Of a DNA stretch of 64,000 nucleotides, positions 23,436-32,045 are shown in pieces. Each line of letters begins with the position of its first letter. Positions within the stretch are counted from its first letter, which is position 1. The translations under genes and the position numbers were made by a program. The stretch is from an uncultured bacterium. GTDB lineage: Bacteria > Planctomycetota > Phycisphaerae > Phycisphaerales > UBA1924. The stretch covers positions 62,001 to 126,000 of the forward strand of contig CAILKP010000047.1 in the NCBI GenBank assembly GCA_903834785.1, given 5' to 3'. Below the pieces are notes generated by a model. That model worked only from the letters and a program-made list of their open reading frames with translations, was not told the origin of the DNA and made no database searches.

Positions 23436-24746
23436 TTAGAACATGACCTGGAGCTGAGCACGCAGGGCGATTTCAGCGCCCTTGTTGGCGCCGGTCAGGC
23501 CCAGGGTGTTGCCGTCGAAGCCGCCACCGATGAGGGTGGTGCCGACAAGGCCGTCGGAGTGGTTCAGACCGAAGACGCAGTCAACGGTCAGCTTGGCAGC
23601 GTTGCCGGCGAAGTAGTGGTTCGCACCGACGGTGACGAACTGGTAGTTCTTCTGGATGTTGCGGTCGCCATCGAGCATCATGAGCTCGTACTTGGCGAAG
23701 AGGTCAGCGTCGGGCAGGACGCGGTAGTTGCCCTGAGCAACGAAGCCGAAGTCGTCACGCTTGATCTTGTCGGTGGTGGTAGCGCCCGAAGACTCGGTGT
23801 GTGTGCCGACGAAGGCCAGGAAGGCGCCGAAACCGCCGCCCTCGATCTGAGCGTCAACGGTGTAGCCGAGCAGGGTGGTGTCGGTAGCGGTGATGGCCTG
23901 AGCGTTGTTGGCCTGACCCTGGACGTGGAAGGCGGCGCCGATGTTGCCGGCGTACTTCTCGTCCTGGCGGCTGGTGTAGTCACGCAGCTGAGCGCGGGTG
24001 CCGGCAAAGCGGAACTCGCCACGGCCGGTCAGGGCCCAGTCAGCGGCCAGAGCGCTGGTCGAGACAGTGTCGCTGCCGGAACCGAAGGTCTTGCGACCCT
24101 CGCCACGGGCGCCGTCGGAGAAGTCGAAGCTGCCGTCGAAGTTATCCGAGAGGTAGTACAGGCTGACAGCCTGGCTACGGCCCTGAGAGAAGAAGGAGTT
24201 CACGATACCGCGGTCAGCGGCCATCGTATTGACGTCGCTGTTGAGCTCTTCCTTCAGGAAGCCGACCTTGTACTGGCCGGCCTTCAGGCCCCAGCCCCCG
24301 CCGAGCTCGTAAGCAACGAACGCATCGTCCATGACGACCGCATCGCCGTTCTTGGAGATGATGCGGACGGAGTACTTCAGCGACTCGCTACCGGCGTTAC
24401 CGGTGAAAGCGATGGCCGTGCGGCGGATGTTGAAGCCGTGGCCGAAGTCAGAACCCGTGCCAGCGCCACCACCGTTGAGGGTGTTGTCGTTGTCAGCGAA
24501 ACGGGCGGTATAGCGGAACTGGGTGAAGCCGCTGACGTTCAGGCGGTACTTGTTGTCGGCCGAGGCCAGGAAGAAGTTCTTGTCGTAGCCGGCCGTCGCG
24601 CCACCCTGCAGCAGGGAGGAACGCGTCTCGGCATCAGCCATCATCTCGGACACCATCGAACGGACCTCGTCGCGGCTGACCGGCTCAGCGGCAACAGCGG
24701 GGAGGGCCAGACCAGCAACCACGATCAGAGCAAAAGCGTTCTTCAT
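23436..24746 (-). CDS. Outer membrane porin (OprO/OprP-like)
   Basis: A 436-residue outer membrane channel protein. It has a signal peptide cut after AVA-AEP near residue 20, a short helical stretch (SRDEVRSMVSEMMADAE) that may trimerise or bind peptidoglycan, then a barrel of amphipathic strands such as YRLNVSGFTQFRYTARF and ends ALRAQLQVMF with the terminal Phe of outer membrane proteins. Segments FNIRRTAIAFTG and WGLKAGQYKVGFLKEEL match phosphate-selective porin O/P family features. Codon use is strongly biased, as for a highly expressed gene. A GGAG site lies 8 bases before the ATG, a promoter is at 24915-24943 and a terminator follows. The divergent neighbour is a PhoB-like regulator, which fits phosphate control, though no Pho box was seen. 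Confidence 0.88.
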   Translation of the reverse strand: MKNAFALIVVAGLALPAVAAEPVSRDEVRSMVSEMMADAETRSSLLQGGATAGYDKNFFLASADNKYRLNVSGFTQFRYTARFADNDNTLNGGGAGTGSDFGHGFNIRRTAIAFTGNAGSESLKYSVRIISKNGDAVVMDDAFVAYELGGGWGLKAGQYKVGFLKEELNSDVNTMAADRGIVNSFFSQGRSQAVSLYYLSDNFDGSFDFSDGARGEGRKTFGSGSDTVSTSALAADWALTGRGEFRFAGTRAQLRDYTSRQDEKYAGNIGAAFHVQGQANNAQAITATDTTLLGYTVDAQIEGGGFGAFLAFVGTHTESSGATTTDKIKRDDFGFVAQGNYRVLPDADLFAKYELMMLDGDRNIQKNYQFVTVGANHYFAGNAAKLTVDCVFGLNHSDGLVGTTLIGGGFDGNTLGLTGANKGAEIALRAQLQVMF

Positions 24747-25207: not shown

Positions 25208-25939
25208 ATGACCCCTGATCGCACGGTCCTGGTCGTCGAAGATGAGCGAGACCTCGCCGACCTGATCTGCTTCAACCTCCAGCGCGGCGGCTATGCAGCA
25301 ACCGCCGTCTACGACGGCCATGCCGCCGTCGCCGCGGCAGCCGCAAACGCCCCCGATCTGGTCATCCTCGATGTCATGCTCCCCGGGCTCAGCGGCCTCG
25401 ATGTCGCCCGCCAGATTCGCACCAACCAGCGCTCCCAGACCGTTCCGATCATCATGCTCACTGCTCGCGGCGAGGAAGCCGATCAGGTCGCCGGGTTATC
25501 GGCCGGTGCCGACGATTACGTCACCAAGCCCTTCTCCATGAAGGTGCTCATGGCCCGCGTCGCCGCCAAACTCCGCCGGGCCCCCGTTGCCGCTGAGCCC
25601 ACTGGAAAGCTTGAGCTAGGACCGATCGGGATCGATCTTGACACGCACTCAGTAACCTGCGAAGGTGCGGCTGTCGTGCTGACCCTGACGGAGTTCAAAC
25701 TCCTCGCCGCGCTCCTGGCCGCTCCCAAACGCGTGCTCAGCCGCTCAGACCTCATCGAACGCGTCATGGGCCCGGGCATCGTGGTCACCACGCGCACCAT
25801 CGATGTCCACATCGCTGCCATCCGCAAGAAGCTCGCCCACAACGGCGGCATGATCCGCACGATCCGCGGTGTCGGCTACCAGGTCATGCCCGAGCCGGCG
25901 ATGCAGCCCGAAAGCGACGAGCCCGTCACGGCAGACTGA
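25208..25939 (+). CDS. OmpR/PhoB-family response regulator
   Basis: A 243-residue DNA-binding response regulator. The receiver domain (about 5-120) has the acidic pair VVEDERD, the phospho-acceptor Asp in LVILDVMLPGL near residue 52, the Thr in IMLTAR and the Lys in YVTKPFS near 102. The winged-helix domain (about 140-230) has TLTEFKLLAALLAAP, LSRSDLIERVMG, TRTIDVHIAAIRKKL and IRGVGYQ, all PhoB-type landmarks. I chose the ATG at 25208 because a GGAG sits 9 bases before it; ATG at 25193 is in frame. The histidine kinase gene follows after a tandem-repeat spacer, and the porin diverges upstream. It probably governs phosphate or envelope response. Confidence 0.9.
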   Translation: MTPDRTVLVVEDERDLADLICFNLQRGGYAATAVYDGHAAVAAAAANAPDLVILDVMLPGLSGLDVARQIRTNQRSQTVPIIMLTARGEEADQVAGLSAGADDYVTKPFSMKVLMARVAAKLRRAPVAAEPTGKLELGPIGIDLDTHSVTCEGAAVVLTLTEFKLLAALLAAPKRVLSRSDLIERVMGPGIVVTTRTIDVHIAAIRKKLAHNGGMIRTIRGVGYQVMPEPAMQPESDEPVTAD

Positions 25940-25940
25940 G

Positions 25941-26060
25941 CACTCGCCGCTCCGCCCCGGCACTCGCCGCTCCGCCCCGGCACTCGCCGCTCCGCCCCGG
26001 CACTCGCCGCTCCGCCCCGGCACTCGCCGCTCCGCCCCGGCACTCGCCGCTCCGCCCCGG
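25941..26060. repeat. Six perfect 20-bp tandem repeats between regulator and kinase genes
   Basis: The unit CACTCGCCGCTCCGCCCCGG is repeated six times without a mismatch from 25941 to 26060; a decayed seventh copy follows. The array begins one base after the regulator stop codon. Because 20 is not a multiple of 3, the array has no constant reading frame. Perfect identity suggests recent expansion by slippage or active copy-number change. Confidence 0.97.
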
Positions 26061-26141
26061 CACCCGCCAAACCGCGTCCCCCCGGTTGCACGCCCCCTCT
26101 CCCCTCAGAGGCGACGGTGCGAATGATCACATCGCCCCTCA

Positions 26142-27563
26142 ATGCCCGCCCGCACGCTTGAATCCGTCGTCCTGGCCGTTCTGGCTGTGGCACTCGCCGT
26201 CGCCGGCTCGCTCTACGCGCCCTGGTTCGGCGGTCTGCTCGGCCTGCTGGCGGTGCTGATCCTCGCCATGCTCGCCGTTTCCCGCCAGCGGCGGCTCCAG
26301 TCCGCGGCTGACGACCTCTCCCGCGACATCGAGCGGCTTGCCGATGCCGGCCTCGCCGAGACACCAGCGGCCCGCCCCAACTCGACCGACGAGGTCCCCG
26401 ATGAACTCGACGGCCTCGCCCGGCAGGTTCGGGAACTCCGCCGACACCTGGCCGCCCAGGTCAAGGAGCTGGCCAAGAAGACACGCAACCTTGAGTCTCT
26501 CATCGATGGCATGGATGAGCCCGTGCTCGTGACAGGCGATCAGGAGACCGTCCTGCTCTGCAACCGTGCCGCCGAGGCCATGCTTGATGCTCGCGCCAGT
26601 TCCCTTCTCGGCCGCAGCATCCGCGAGTTGTTCACCACGGCCGACCTGCTGGCGATGCACCGGCGTGCACGCGCTGGCGATCCCCAGCGGGCCCGCGTTC
26701 GACTCACTACCCCCGCTGGTGTCCGGACCTTCCAGACCTCCGCCTCACCACTGCCCGCGGCATGGGGCGAGGGTATTTTCGGTGTCATCATCGTCCTGCG
26801 TGATGTCACGGAACTCGCCCAGGCGATCCAGTTGCAGACCGACTTTGTCGCCAACGCCAGCCATGAACTCCGCACGCCGGTCGCCGCGCTCAAGGCCTCG
26901 ATCGAGACGCTCCAGGACGGTGCCAAAGAACAGCCAGAGCTGCTCGACAAGCTCTTGGGCATCTGCGACAGCAATGTCACGCGGCTCGAGGAGATGGTTC
27001 GCGATCTGCTGGATCTCTCACGCCTGCAGTCCGCGGACATGCCCGTGCGCCTGGGAATCGTCCCCGTCGACGACCTCAAGGCCACGCTTCTGGTCAGCTT
27101 CGAGGTCGTCTGCCAGCGTCGCCGGCTGCAGCTTGACATCACCGTCGACCCTGCTCTCGGCACCATGAGCAGCGACGTCAAGCTCCTCTCGCTGGTCCTG
27201 CGCAACTTGATCGAGAACGCCACCAAGTTCGCCTTCGAGAACACCGTCATCCGCGTCCGCGGCCAGCGCATCGAGGCGCCCGCCGGCCCCATCGCCCGCT
27301 TCACTGTCGCCGACCGTGGTATCGGTATCCCCCTTGACCAGCAGGCCCGCGTCTTCGAACGCTTCTACCAGGTCGATGCGTCTCGAACCGGTCACAAGCC
27401 TCAGGGCCGTGGCAGCGGTCTGGGCCTTGCGATTGTCAAGCAGGCCGTCGATGCCCTCGGGGGCAAGGTCACGATGGATAGCGTCTATGGCGAGGGCACC
27501 ACAGTCGTCGTCGAACTGCCGACAAACGAAGGTTCCGCCCGCCCCCCGACGCCGGTGAGTTAA
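26142..27563 (+). CDS. PhoR-like membrane histidine kinase
   Basis: A 473-residue sensor kinase. Two short hydrophobic helices near residues 8-24 and 28-46 anchor it with almost no periplasmic loop, so it likely senses the membrane or a partner protein. A HAMP-like helical stretch (50-110) is followed by a PAS domain (about 115-225, LIDGMDEPVLVTGDQE). The HisKA helix has the phospho-histidine in NASHELRTPVAALK near 243. The ATPase domain has LRNLIENATKFA near 352, DRGIGIPLDQQARVFERFYQ near 390 and GSGLGLAIVKQ near 425. It follows the response regulator across a 200-base spacer that includes the tandem repeats, so the array could alter the ratio of kinase to regulator. Confidence 0.9.
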   Translation: MPARTLESVVLAVLAVALAVAGSLYAPWFGGLLGLLAVLILAMLAVSRQRRLQSAADDLSRDIERLADAGLAETPAARPNSTDEVPDELDGLARQVRELRRHLAAQVKELAKKTRNLESLIDGMDEPVLVTGDQETVLLCNRAAEAMLDARASSLLGRSIRELFTTADLLAMHRRARAGDPQRARVRLTTPAGVRTFQTSASPLPAAWGEGIFGVIIVLRDVTELAQAIQLQTDFVANASHELRTPVAALKASIETLQDGAKEQPELLDKLLGICDSNVTRLEEMVRDLLDLSRLQSADMPVRLGIVPVDDLKATLLVSFEVVCQRRRLQLDITVDPALGTMSSDVKLLSLVLRNLIENATKFAFENTVIRVRGQRIEAPAGPIARFTVADRGIGIPLDQQARVFERFYQVDASRTGHKPQGRGSGLGLAIVKQAVDALGGKVTMDSVYGEGTTVVVELPTNEGSARPPTPVS

Positions 27564-29189: not shown

Positions 29190-32045
29190 TTAGCAGCCAG
29201 CGCCAAACGCGTTAATGAACGCGATGAAGTCGCTGCCGTCGATGGTGCCGTCGGGCTGATCGCCGTTGGTGCCGCCACCAGCGACGTCGGCCAGGGGGTC
29301 CACGGTCGCATCGCCGATGCTGAAGCTGTTGATGAACGCGATGAAGTCGCTTCCGTCAACAGTGCCGTCGGGCGAGTTGCCGGTGGCGCCGCCGCCAGCG
29401 ATATCAGCCAGGCACTGCGGGCCGCCCGGGCAGGGGGCCGCGGGCGTGGAGCCGTTGCGGGGAGTGGCGTTCAGGCCGGCCGCCAGCAGAACCTCAAAGT
29501 CGATGGCGTTCTGGTTGGTGTCCTGGCAGCCGCCTTCCTTGCGGGCTGCGTACAGGATGTCCGAGAGCGTCGCCGTCGGGCCGACGCCTTCGAACGAGGG
29601 CGTCGCCGAGCCGTATCCGACCAGGTCAACCACATCGCTGCGGCTCAGGTCGTTACCGACAAGCGTGGTGCTGGCCACCAGAACCACGCGGCCGAAGCTG
29701 CTCTCAATGCCGAACAGCGTCGCGGGCACATAGTCTGCCGCCGGCAGCGGGATGCCCGTCGCCGAGACCTGATTCGTCACGATGAGACGGTACTCGCCGG
29801 GGTTGATCACGCCCGAAAGGAAGCAGATGCGGTTGTTGAACCCGTCCGCATCGGTGATGCGGGCCGACTGCAGGCTCCATCCGGTCAGGTTGACCGGAGC
29901 GTTCGAGCGATTGAAGATCTCCGCGAAGTCACCCGTGAAGCCTGATCCGGCGTTGCCGCCGCCGCCGAACACGCGGCTGATGACAACCGGCGCGTTCGAG
30001 TTGAAGCAGTTGCCGATGGAAATCGGCAGCGTGCTGGTATCGCTGCGACCCTGCGCATCAGACGCGGTGAAGGCGACCGTGCGGTTGGCCTGAGCCGTAG
30101 TCACCGGAACGGTGTACGTGGCCGAGTAAATGCCGTCGCCGGCAAACGCATCGCCGTTGCTGCCGTTATCCAGCAGCTGCACCGTCGCCGGGGAACCGAC
30201 GATGCTGCTCACATCGACCGCGACGGTGATCCCGGTGCTGCCCGCCCCGGGCACGACGCGGCTGAAGAACGTCACGTCCGCGCCCGAGCACACCGCTGAG
30301 AGCGACGCCGACGGATACGCCGCGAGGAACCCGCCATCGGCGCGGTTCCGCGGGTTCACCGCACCGGAGACGAAGTCGTTGAAGTTCTGGTTGCTGTCCT
30401 GCACGCCGTCAAGCTTGCGCAGCAGCGCGGAGGTAAGAACGGGCGAGGCCGTCGCCGCCGGGCCGTTGCCCTCAAAGCTGATCGCCCCGCTGCCGTATCC
30501 GACGAAGTCCTCGATGCTCGCATCGTTGTAGTTGGTGCCCAGCAGCGTGGTCGAACGCACCAGCGCCACGCGGCCGCCGGTGTTGCCCATACCACCGAAG
30601 TTCGGCAGCTGCGCAAAGTCCGGCTCCGGCAGCGGATTGAATCCCGGCACCGGATCGCTCATACGCACGAGCATGCGCTGTCCCGGTCGGATGCTGCCAC
30701 GCAGCGGAACGCGGTCGCCCGTGTCGGCGAAGCCCGCAGCCGAGCCCTGACTGGCGTACTGGACCGACCAGCCTTCAAGGCTGACAGCCGTCGCCGAGCG
30801 GTTGTACAGCTCAACGTAGTCTGCATCGAACGGCGCAAAGCCGCCGGTGAACAGATCGACGTTGCCGCCGGAGCTGAAGATCTGGCTGATCACCACGCGC
30901 GAGTTCGAGTTCGCTGCGCAGTTACCCACCGTAACCGGGATGGTTGTCGTCCCCGAGCGACCCTGCGCGTCTGAGATCGTCGCCGTGATCGTCGCAGGAC
31001 CCAGCGTTTGCCCGTCCGGAATCGCGGCGACATATGTATAGACACCGTCGCCGGCGAACAGATCGCCGTTCGTCCCGTCATCGCGGAACGCCTGGGTGGA
31101 GTTCAGCCCCAGAGCCGACAGATCGGCCGCCACGGTGATGCCTGTGCTTACCGGGCCTGCGCCACCCTGCGCCGTGACGGTGAAGGTCAGCGGACCGCCG
31201 CTGGAGCAGACCGCCGGAGGGTTGACCTCGCCCGTCCCGGCCGGACCGACCGATCGCAGGGCGTCGCCGCGGAATGTGACCATATCGAACCGCCAGTTGC
31301 CTGATGCGTTGTTGTAACGGCCGCCCGAGGCACCGCCATACGCCAGCGGGCTCAGCGTCGAGTCGTAGACCGAGACCATCCGAACCCGGAAGTTCGGGTT
31401 GTCGTTGACCGCAGGGATGCCCGTGAAGTCAATAGACAAACCGTTGGTCCATGCGTTCGGAACCGCGGTTAACACCTGCACGGTGCCCGTCGGTGTCGTC
31501 GTTGCGATGTTGTTCCACGTCGCGCCCGCATTGGTGGAGTACTGCACCTGCATGTTCCTGACGCTCTGGTTGGTGTTGAACCAGTCAAAGGTCAGCACAA
31601 CGTTGGCGAAGTTCTGGGTGCTTACTTCAAACTGGGCGCCCTGGGTGTACTGCGGGGCCGCCAAGGCGTAGCCCACGCCAGCGCCCGCCAGAGTGCCGTC
31701 AAAGCCGCCACGCACGCGCCAGAACTTCGAGTTCGTCGGGTCCGAACTGCCCGTGTTGCTGCTCGTGACATCGCACGTCGTAAACGAGCCCACGATGTTC
31801 CGCGGCGGGGTGGAGCCCGGCACCGTCGCCGAGTAGGCGTAGTTGTTGGTCATGCCCAGCGGCACCGCCGCACCGCGGCCGGTCGAGGGAGCCGGGTTGT
31901 TGACGATCTGCCCGGTGGCAAGGTTGTTGAATGTCCACTGGGTGAACACAACCGGCTGGGCAGCGGCCATCCCGGCCAGACAAACCAAGGCGACGGCGGC
32001 GGCAGCCGCCTGGAACGGAACAGTCACGGAGCGTGGGCGCATCAT
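29190..32045 (-). CDS. Large secreted protein with two lamin-tail domains and dockerin-like C-terminus
   Basis: A 951-residue exported protein. A signal peptide ends near AAAQ-P at residue 30. The first 380 residues are beta-rich and include repeated Ig-like segments. Lamin-tail domains lie near 380-560 (VVISQIFSSGG, ADYVELYNRS, VSLEGWSV) and near 682-860 (VVISRVFGGGG, FAEIFNRS, VNLTGWSLQ). The last 75 residues carry two EF-hand-like repeats, PDGTVDGSDFIAFINSF and PDGTIDGSDFIAFINAF, and end AGC. This C-terminus is common in planctomycete exported proteins and probably serves cell-surface attachment or sorting. A Shine-Dalgarno AAGGA lies about 9 bases upstream. A paralogue is at 60918, and a prepilin gene lies directly upstream on the same strand. 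Confidence 0.88.
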   Translation of the reverse strand: MMRPRSVTVPFQAAAAAVALVCLAGMAAAQPVVFTQWTFNNLATGQIVNNPAPSTGRGAAVPLGMTNNYAYSATVPGSTPPRNIVGSFTTCDVTSSNTGSSDPTNSKFWRVRGGFDGTLAGAGVGYALAAPQYTQGAQFEVSTQNFANVVLTFDWFNTNQSVRNMQVQYSTNAGATWNNIATTTPTGTVQVLTAVPNAWTNGLSIDFTGIPAVNDNPNFRVRMVSVYDSTLSPLAYGGASGGRYNNASGNWRFDMVTFRGDALRSVGPAGTGEVNPPAVCSSGGPLTFTVTAQGGAGPVSTGITVAADLSALGLNSTQAFRDDGTNGDLFAGDGVYTYVAAIPDGQTLGPATITATISDAQGRSGTTTIPVTVGNCAANSNSRVVISQIFSSGGNVDLFTGGFAPFDADYVELYNRSATAVSLEGWSVQYASQGSAAGFADTGDRVPLRGSIRPGQRMLVRMSDPVPGFNPLPEPDFAQLPNFGGMGNTGGRVALVRSTTLLGTNYNDASIEDFVGYGSGAISFEGNGPAATASPVLTSALLRKLDGVQDSNQNFNDFVSGAVNPRNRADGGFLAAYPSASLSAVCSGADVTFFSRVVPGAGSTGITVAVDVSSIVGSPATVQLLDNGSNGDAFAGDGIYSATYTVPVTTAQANRTVAFTASDAQGRSDTSTLPISIGNCFNSNAPVVISRVFGGGGNAGSGFTGDFAEIFNRSNAPVNLTGWSLQSARITDADGFNNRICFLSGVINPGEYRLIVTNQVSATGIPLPAADYVPATLFGIESSFGRVVLVASTTLVGNDLSRSDVVDLVGYGSATPSFEGVGPTATLSDILYAARKEGGCQDTNQNAIDFEVLLAAGLNATPRNGSTPAAPCPGGPQCLADIAGGGATGNSPDGTVDGSDFIAFINSFSIGDATVDPLADVAGGGTNGDQPDGTIDGSDFIAFINAFGAGC

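Follow-up and report, generated by a model that had tools for sequence, protein, structure and literature searches.

In classical contingency loci, repeats work from a position between promoter elements or ahead of the first gene. SenX3-RegX3 is a phosphate system. Its intergenic region in M. tuberculosis carries MIRU repeats, which comprise three 77-bp units in H37Rv and two 77-bp units plus one 53-bp unit in CDC1551, as summarized in PMC4213456 (citing Supply et al. 1997). The same spacer has promoter activity for regX3, and its precise role needs further study according to the authors (PMC4213456). In lake Planctomycetota, long-read work reports that noncoding deletions are frequently linked to intergenic tandem repeats (PMC9426551), which supports the instability of such repeats in general and not specifically that of the array described here. 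Our literature search for intergenic repeat arrays in two-component operons returned nothing closer than senX3-regX3, and the search combining Planctomycetes with tandem repeats returned one useful paper, PMC9426551.

Results

A perfect tandem array between a regulator gene and its kinase gene

Here, we found six identical 20-bp tandem copies of GCACTCGCCGCTCCGCCCCG at 25940-26059 of the window (the whole 64,000-nt stretch of DNA that was analysed), in the spacer between a PhoB-like response regulator gene and a sensor histidine kinase gene. The features of the locus, in window coordinates, are as follows:

23436..24746, minus strand: divergent outer-membrane porin, Porin_O_P (phosphate-selective porin family; Pfam PF07396, E 4.7e-07)
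25208..25939, plus strand: PhoB-like OmpR-family response regulator (Pfam Response_reg 1.9e-28, Trans_reg_C 3.7e-21)
25940..26059, plus strand: six-copy array of the unit GCACTCGCCGCTCCGCCCCG, exact identity; the exact periodicity extends to 26063
26060..26079, plus strand: decayed seventh copy GCACCCGCCAAACCGCGTCC (13/20 identical to the unit, by eye; TRF extends the array to 26068)
26080..26141, plus strand: remaining spacer, including the kinase leader
26142..27563, plus strand: PhoR/PnpS-like sensor histidine kinase (PAS, HisKA and HATPase_c, Pfam)

The original prediction of six identical 20-bp copies between a response regulator and its kinase was confirmed by the sequence, by TRF and by the domain matches. 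Its start needs a small correction, from 25941, one base past the regulator stop, to 25940, as the array begins directly 3' of the TGA at 25937-25939. Exact periodicity up to 26063 corresponds to 6.2 copies and an exact array of 124 bp, and the TRF call covers 25940-26068 with 6.4 copies, 99% matches and a score of 251, compared with a score of 65 for the second-best array within the window. With at most three mismatches allowed, the unit matches the window seven times, where shuffles predict 0.13 matches, so the array is not a product of chance. In minisatellites (VNTRs), a unit of 10-100 bp is repeated head to tail with little or no difference between copies, and the locus has six perfect copies of a 20-bp unit.

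Both flanking genes are intact and have the domain layout of PhoB and PhoR, that is, a receiver with an OmpR-type winged helix in the regulator, and PAS, HisKA and HATPase_c domains in the kinase. The regulator start at 25208 was picked by homology and is approximate, with the frame open from 25055; the kinase ATG lies at 26142, and an in-frame stop at 26124-26126 bars any start upstream of 26127. The best NCBIfam model was TIGR02154 (PhoB) for the regulator (246.6 bits, cut-off 296.2) and NF046044 (PnpS) for the kinase (272.3 bits, cut-off 400), with the PhoR model in third place for the kinase (217 bits, cut-off 334.2). The curated PhoB and PhoR models are thus best or among the best, with both proteins scoring under the cut-offs, so the system is phosphate-type by resemblance rather than by model membership. 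By this resemblance, the pair is probably phosphate-sensing. The named matches to the regulator include a Planctomycetota MAG as the best and a Planctomycetaceae MAG as the third, which makes a planctomycete the probable source. The context of the Porin_O_P gene fits a phosphate-type two-component system, and PhoU-domain genes lie elsewhere, on contigs C50 and C9 of the same genome. It is worth mentioning that this porin gene (23436-24746, minus strand), which is divergent from the regulator gene, is a plausible target of the regulator.

The array was found in one genome only and makes the spacer over twice as long

No exact tandem array of greater length was found in 1.26 Mb of its own genome (window included), nor in the approximately 2.5 Mb sampled from this genome and three related genomes together. 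Outside the window, 1.2 Mb sampled from the same genome contained 13 exact arrays with at least three copies and units of 7-14 bp, and the longest exact arrays in three family relatives (400-kb samples each) were 56, 77 and 55 bp, as compared to 124 bp here. Given these shorter exact arrays, the one described here is an extreme member of a common class, and looks like an ordinary, known kind of bacterial slippage-type repeat.

The unit itself occurs at a single locus. Allowing three mismatches, we found five matches outside the array in its own genome, compared with four for a reversed control pattern. None of 149 other genomes of the family, one other species of the genus among them, contained two tandem units (at most three mismatches); genome_contigs gave no exact match to two tandem units, and viral contigs gave none to one and a half units. 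A dispersed repeat family of the MIRU, REP or BIME type was rejected because the unit is single-locus and its weak matches appear to reflect base composition along short stretches; a mobile or phage origin was rejected because the viral contigs gave no exact match to one and a half units.

Other repeats were observed in the genome. A large Lamin-Tail-Domain protein (29190-32045 of the window, minus strand) has two copies of a DVAGGGxxGxxPDGTxDGSDFIAFIN-like motif at its C-terminus, and 117-bp duplications at L077:13554-13766 and L065:6710-6922 appear to encode similar motifs; this is perhaps a shared surface-anchoring or sorting tail. A 126-bp tandem array of 7.4 copies with 75% match at L065:14775-15701 (G000 contig C61) possibly belongs to a repeat protein gene.

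The gene order of regulator and kinase is retained in relatives. Spacers were compared in the 17 family relatives in which both genes could be located by script. From the regulator stop to the first possible kinase start they measure -40 to 92 nt in these relatives, the same-genus relative having 92 nt, compared with 202 nt here. The distance from the regulator stop to the H-box is 919 nt here, 812 nt in the same-genus relative and 604 to 873 nt over the 17 relatives. The array more than doubles the spacer, and removing five copies, so that a single one is left, gives a spacer of 102 nt, close to that of the same-genus relative. The array accounts for the excess and is therefore best read as a lineage-specific expansion. 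The orthologous pair of another family member (L019, genome G015) has an exact 9-bp array of its own, CACCCCCAC, with 4.3 copies at about 82-120 nt past the regulator stop. It lies a short way 3' of the first codon from which the kinase could start and, if that start is right, changes in its copy number would preserve the frame.

A probable recent expansion by slippage or unequal recombination

We consider it likely that the array is a recent, lineage-specific minisatellite of the VNTR type, produced by slippage or unequal recombination, with a probably unstable copy number and little or no selected function. Slippage during replication, or else unequal recombination, would have multiplied the 20-bp unit in the untranslated spacer that separates regulator and kinase, and the lengthening of the spacer would be a by-product of this expansion. 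The copies are identical, the family relatives tested have no such array, and the spacer exceeds even the longest among the 17 relatives by about 100 nt; these comparisons indicate that this lineage must have undergone a change in copy number and that the array is recent. The identical copies, with the sole decayed copy at the downstream edge, fit a recent expansion by either process. The array probably originated by slippage and is probably unstable at present. Selection could also explain perfect copies placed exactly in an operon spacer.

Discussion

Copy number and expression of the two genes

The array has no effect on either reading frame, as the regulator ends before it and the stop in the kinase frame at 26124-26126 lies downstream. 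Because of this in-frame stop 3' of the array, and because the unit contains no start codon (ATG, GTG or TTG), an on/off frame switch is impossible. It had been proposed that a change in copy number would alter both the spacing and the RNA folding, and thereby the kinase-to-regulator ratio, as a possible phase-variable switch. The first part of this proposal holds, with a spacing of 202 nt for six copies and 102 nt for one. In contrast, the calculation does not support the folding part: with anywhere from 0 to 10 copies, the region around the kinase start (-20 to +12) was unpaired at 0.48, adjacent copies pair with each other in the predicted fold, and the stability of the region was not above that of shuffles (z = 0.30). 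A phase-variation reading is possible, with the qualification that a graded change would be tuning and not an on/off phase switch.

Several other candidates for a function of the spacer were rejected. A scan of the spacer returned no sigma-70-type promoter, with the limit that such scans may miss planctomycete promoters, and no terminator-like hairpin, which removed an intrinsic terminator or internal sigma-70 promoter from consideration. A structured RNA was dismissed since no Rfam match lies in or near the spacer (one sub-threshold match lies elsewhere) and folding did not exceed shuffles, and a translated repeat was dismissed since the array lies between the regulator stop and the stop in the kinase frame. 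The ORFs running across the array (25869-26126 on the plus strand and 25876-26364 on the minus strand) are without support. At 26123-26126, the stop of the first of these ORFs shares an ATGA with the start codon of an ORF of 12 codons, which in turn overlaps the kinase start; this is probably chance.

If the array has any effect, the most plausible route would be lost coupling or Rho-type polarity. An untranslated spacer of 202 nt would do away with any translational coupling between regulator and kinase of the kind that short spacers presumably permit in the relatives. The spacer is rich in C (60%) and poor in G (24%). Of the 15 plus-strand positions in the window at which C exceeds G by at least 30 within 78 nt, almost all fall at the array; the genome has a rho gene. 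Such RNA, exposed after the regulator stop, could be used by Rho, and more copies would lead to at most a graded lowering of kinase expression. Rho-dependent polarity is possible on grounds of composition, with C-rich RNA being common in high-GC genomes and this stretch being an extreme of the window.

A selected role would make the array a contingency or tuning locus, in which copy number would vary within the population and be under selection because the kinase-to-regulator ratio depends on spacer length, by way of lost coupling, Rho polarity or RNA stability. The position between the two genes, the perfection of the copies, the clear change in spacer length relative to relatives, the coincidence of the array with the most C-over-G-rich RNA of the window and the presence of a rho gene would agree with such a role, and there is a precedent in senX3-regX3, where the intergenic MIRU repeats vary among strains and the region has promoter activity (PMC4213456). 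However, the array is found in one genome only, the predicted accessibility of the kinase start is independent of copy number with folding not beyond shuffles, and the spacer has no promoter-like site, so that we regard this role as unlikely. Its most specific form, a rheostat in which each added 20-bp unit would raise Rho-dependent polarity and lower the kinase-to-regulator ratio stepwise, giving heritable diversity of phosphate signalling in the population, seems to us quite improbable.

The source is a fragmented draft assembly of 161 contigs, and the array is known from this one assembly. Because the exact 124-bp array is about as long as short reads or k-mers, the assembled number of six copies may be a collapsed value. 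The same proximity to the k-mer or read limit in a draft of this kind could suggest that the true array has another length or that the repeat was created by the assembler. However, assemblers tend to collapse repeats and not to invent them, a decayed seventh copy adjoins the array, and the genes on both sides are intact; we therefore give an assembly artefact little credence.

OmpR/PhoB-family regulators bind direct repeats of 10-11 bp, and the 20-bp period is about two helical turns, so the array might be read as 12 operator half-sites of 10 bp for the regulator itself, acting in feedback or as a roadblock within the operon; however, the halves of the unit agree at only 5/10 positions (by eye), copies of the unit in the genome do not exceed the control level, which speaks against a regulon, and the same-genus relative has no array with a regulator that is 62% identical, which makes this reading highly implausible.

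Comparison with known systems

Expansion by slippage or unequal recombination is thus our preferred reading, and we compared the locus with described systems. As in spacer-length phase variation at contingency loci, the number of repeats sets the length of a noncoding control region; unlike in the classical cases, the array is internal to an operon, and neither a promoter nor a changed structure at the start codon was found. Like senX3-regX3, the locus has tandem repeats in the spacer of a PhoR/PhoB-type two-component operon, whereas the MIRU units there are 77 or 53 bp long and strain-variable and the kinase comes first, and here a single-locus 20-bp unit occurs in one genome with the regulator first. 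If copy number tuned the kinase-to-regulator ratio, the array would be a simple genetic rheostat for nutrient sensing in a phylum that has been little studied, and would join senX3-regX3 as a second case. The repeats of lake Planctomycetota, probably of the same phylum, are likewise intergenic and in tandem, and slippage was proposed there as the cause, although that study took a genome-wide view in which this locus is not singled out (PMC9426551). If the array is a slippage product, which is likelier, it would be of use for marking strains and would illustrate the intergenic plasticity that has been reported in Planctomycetota.
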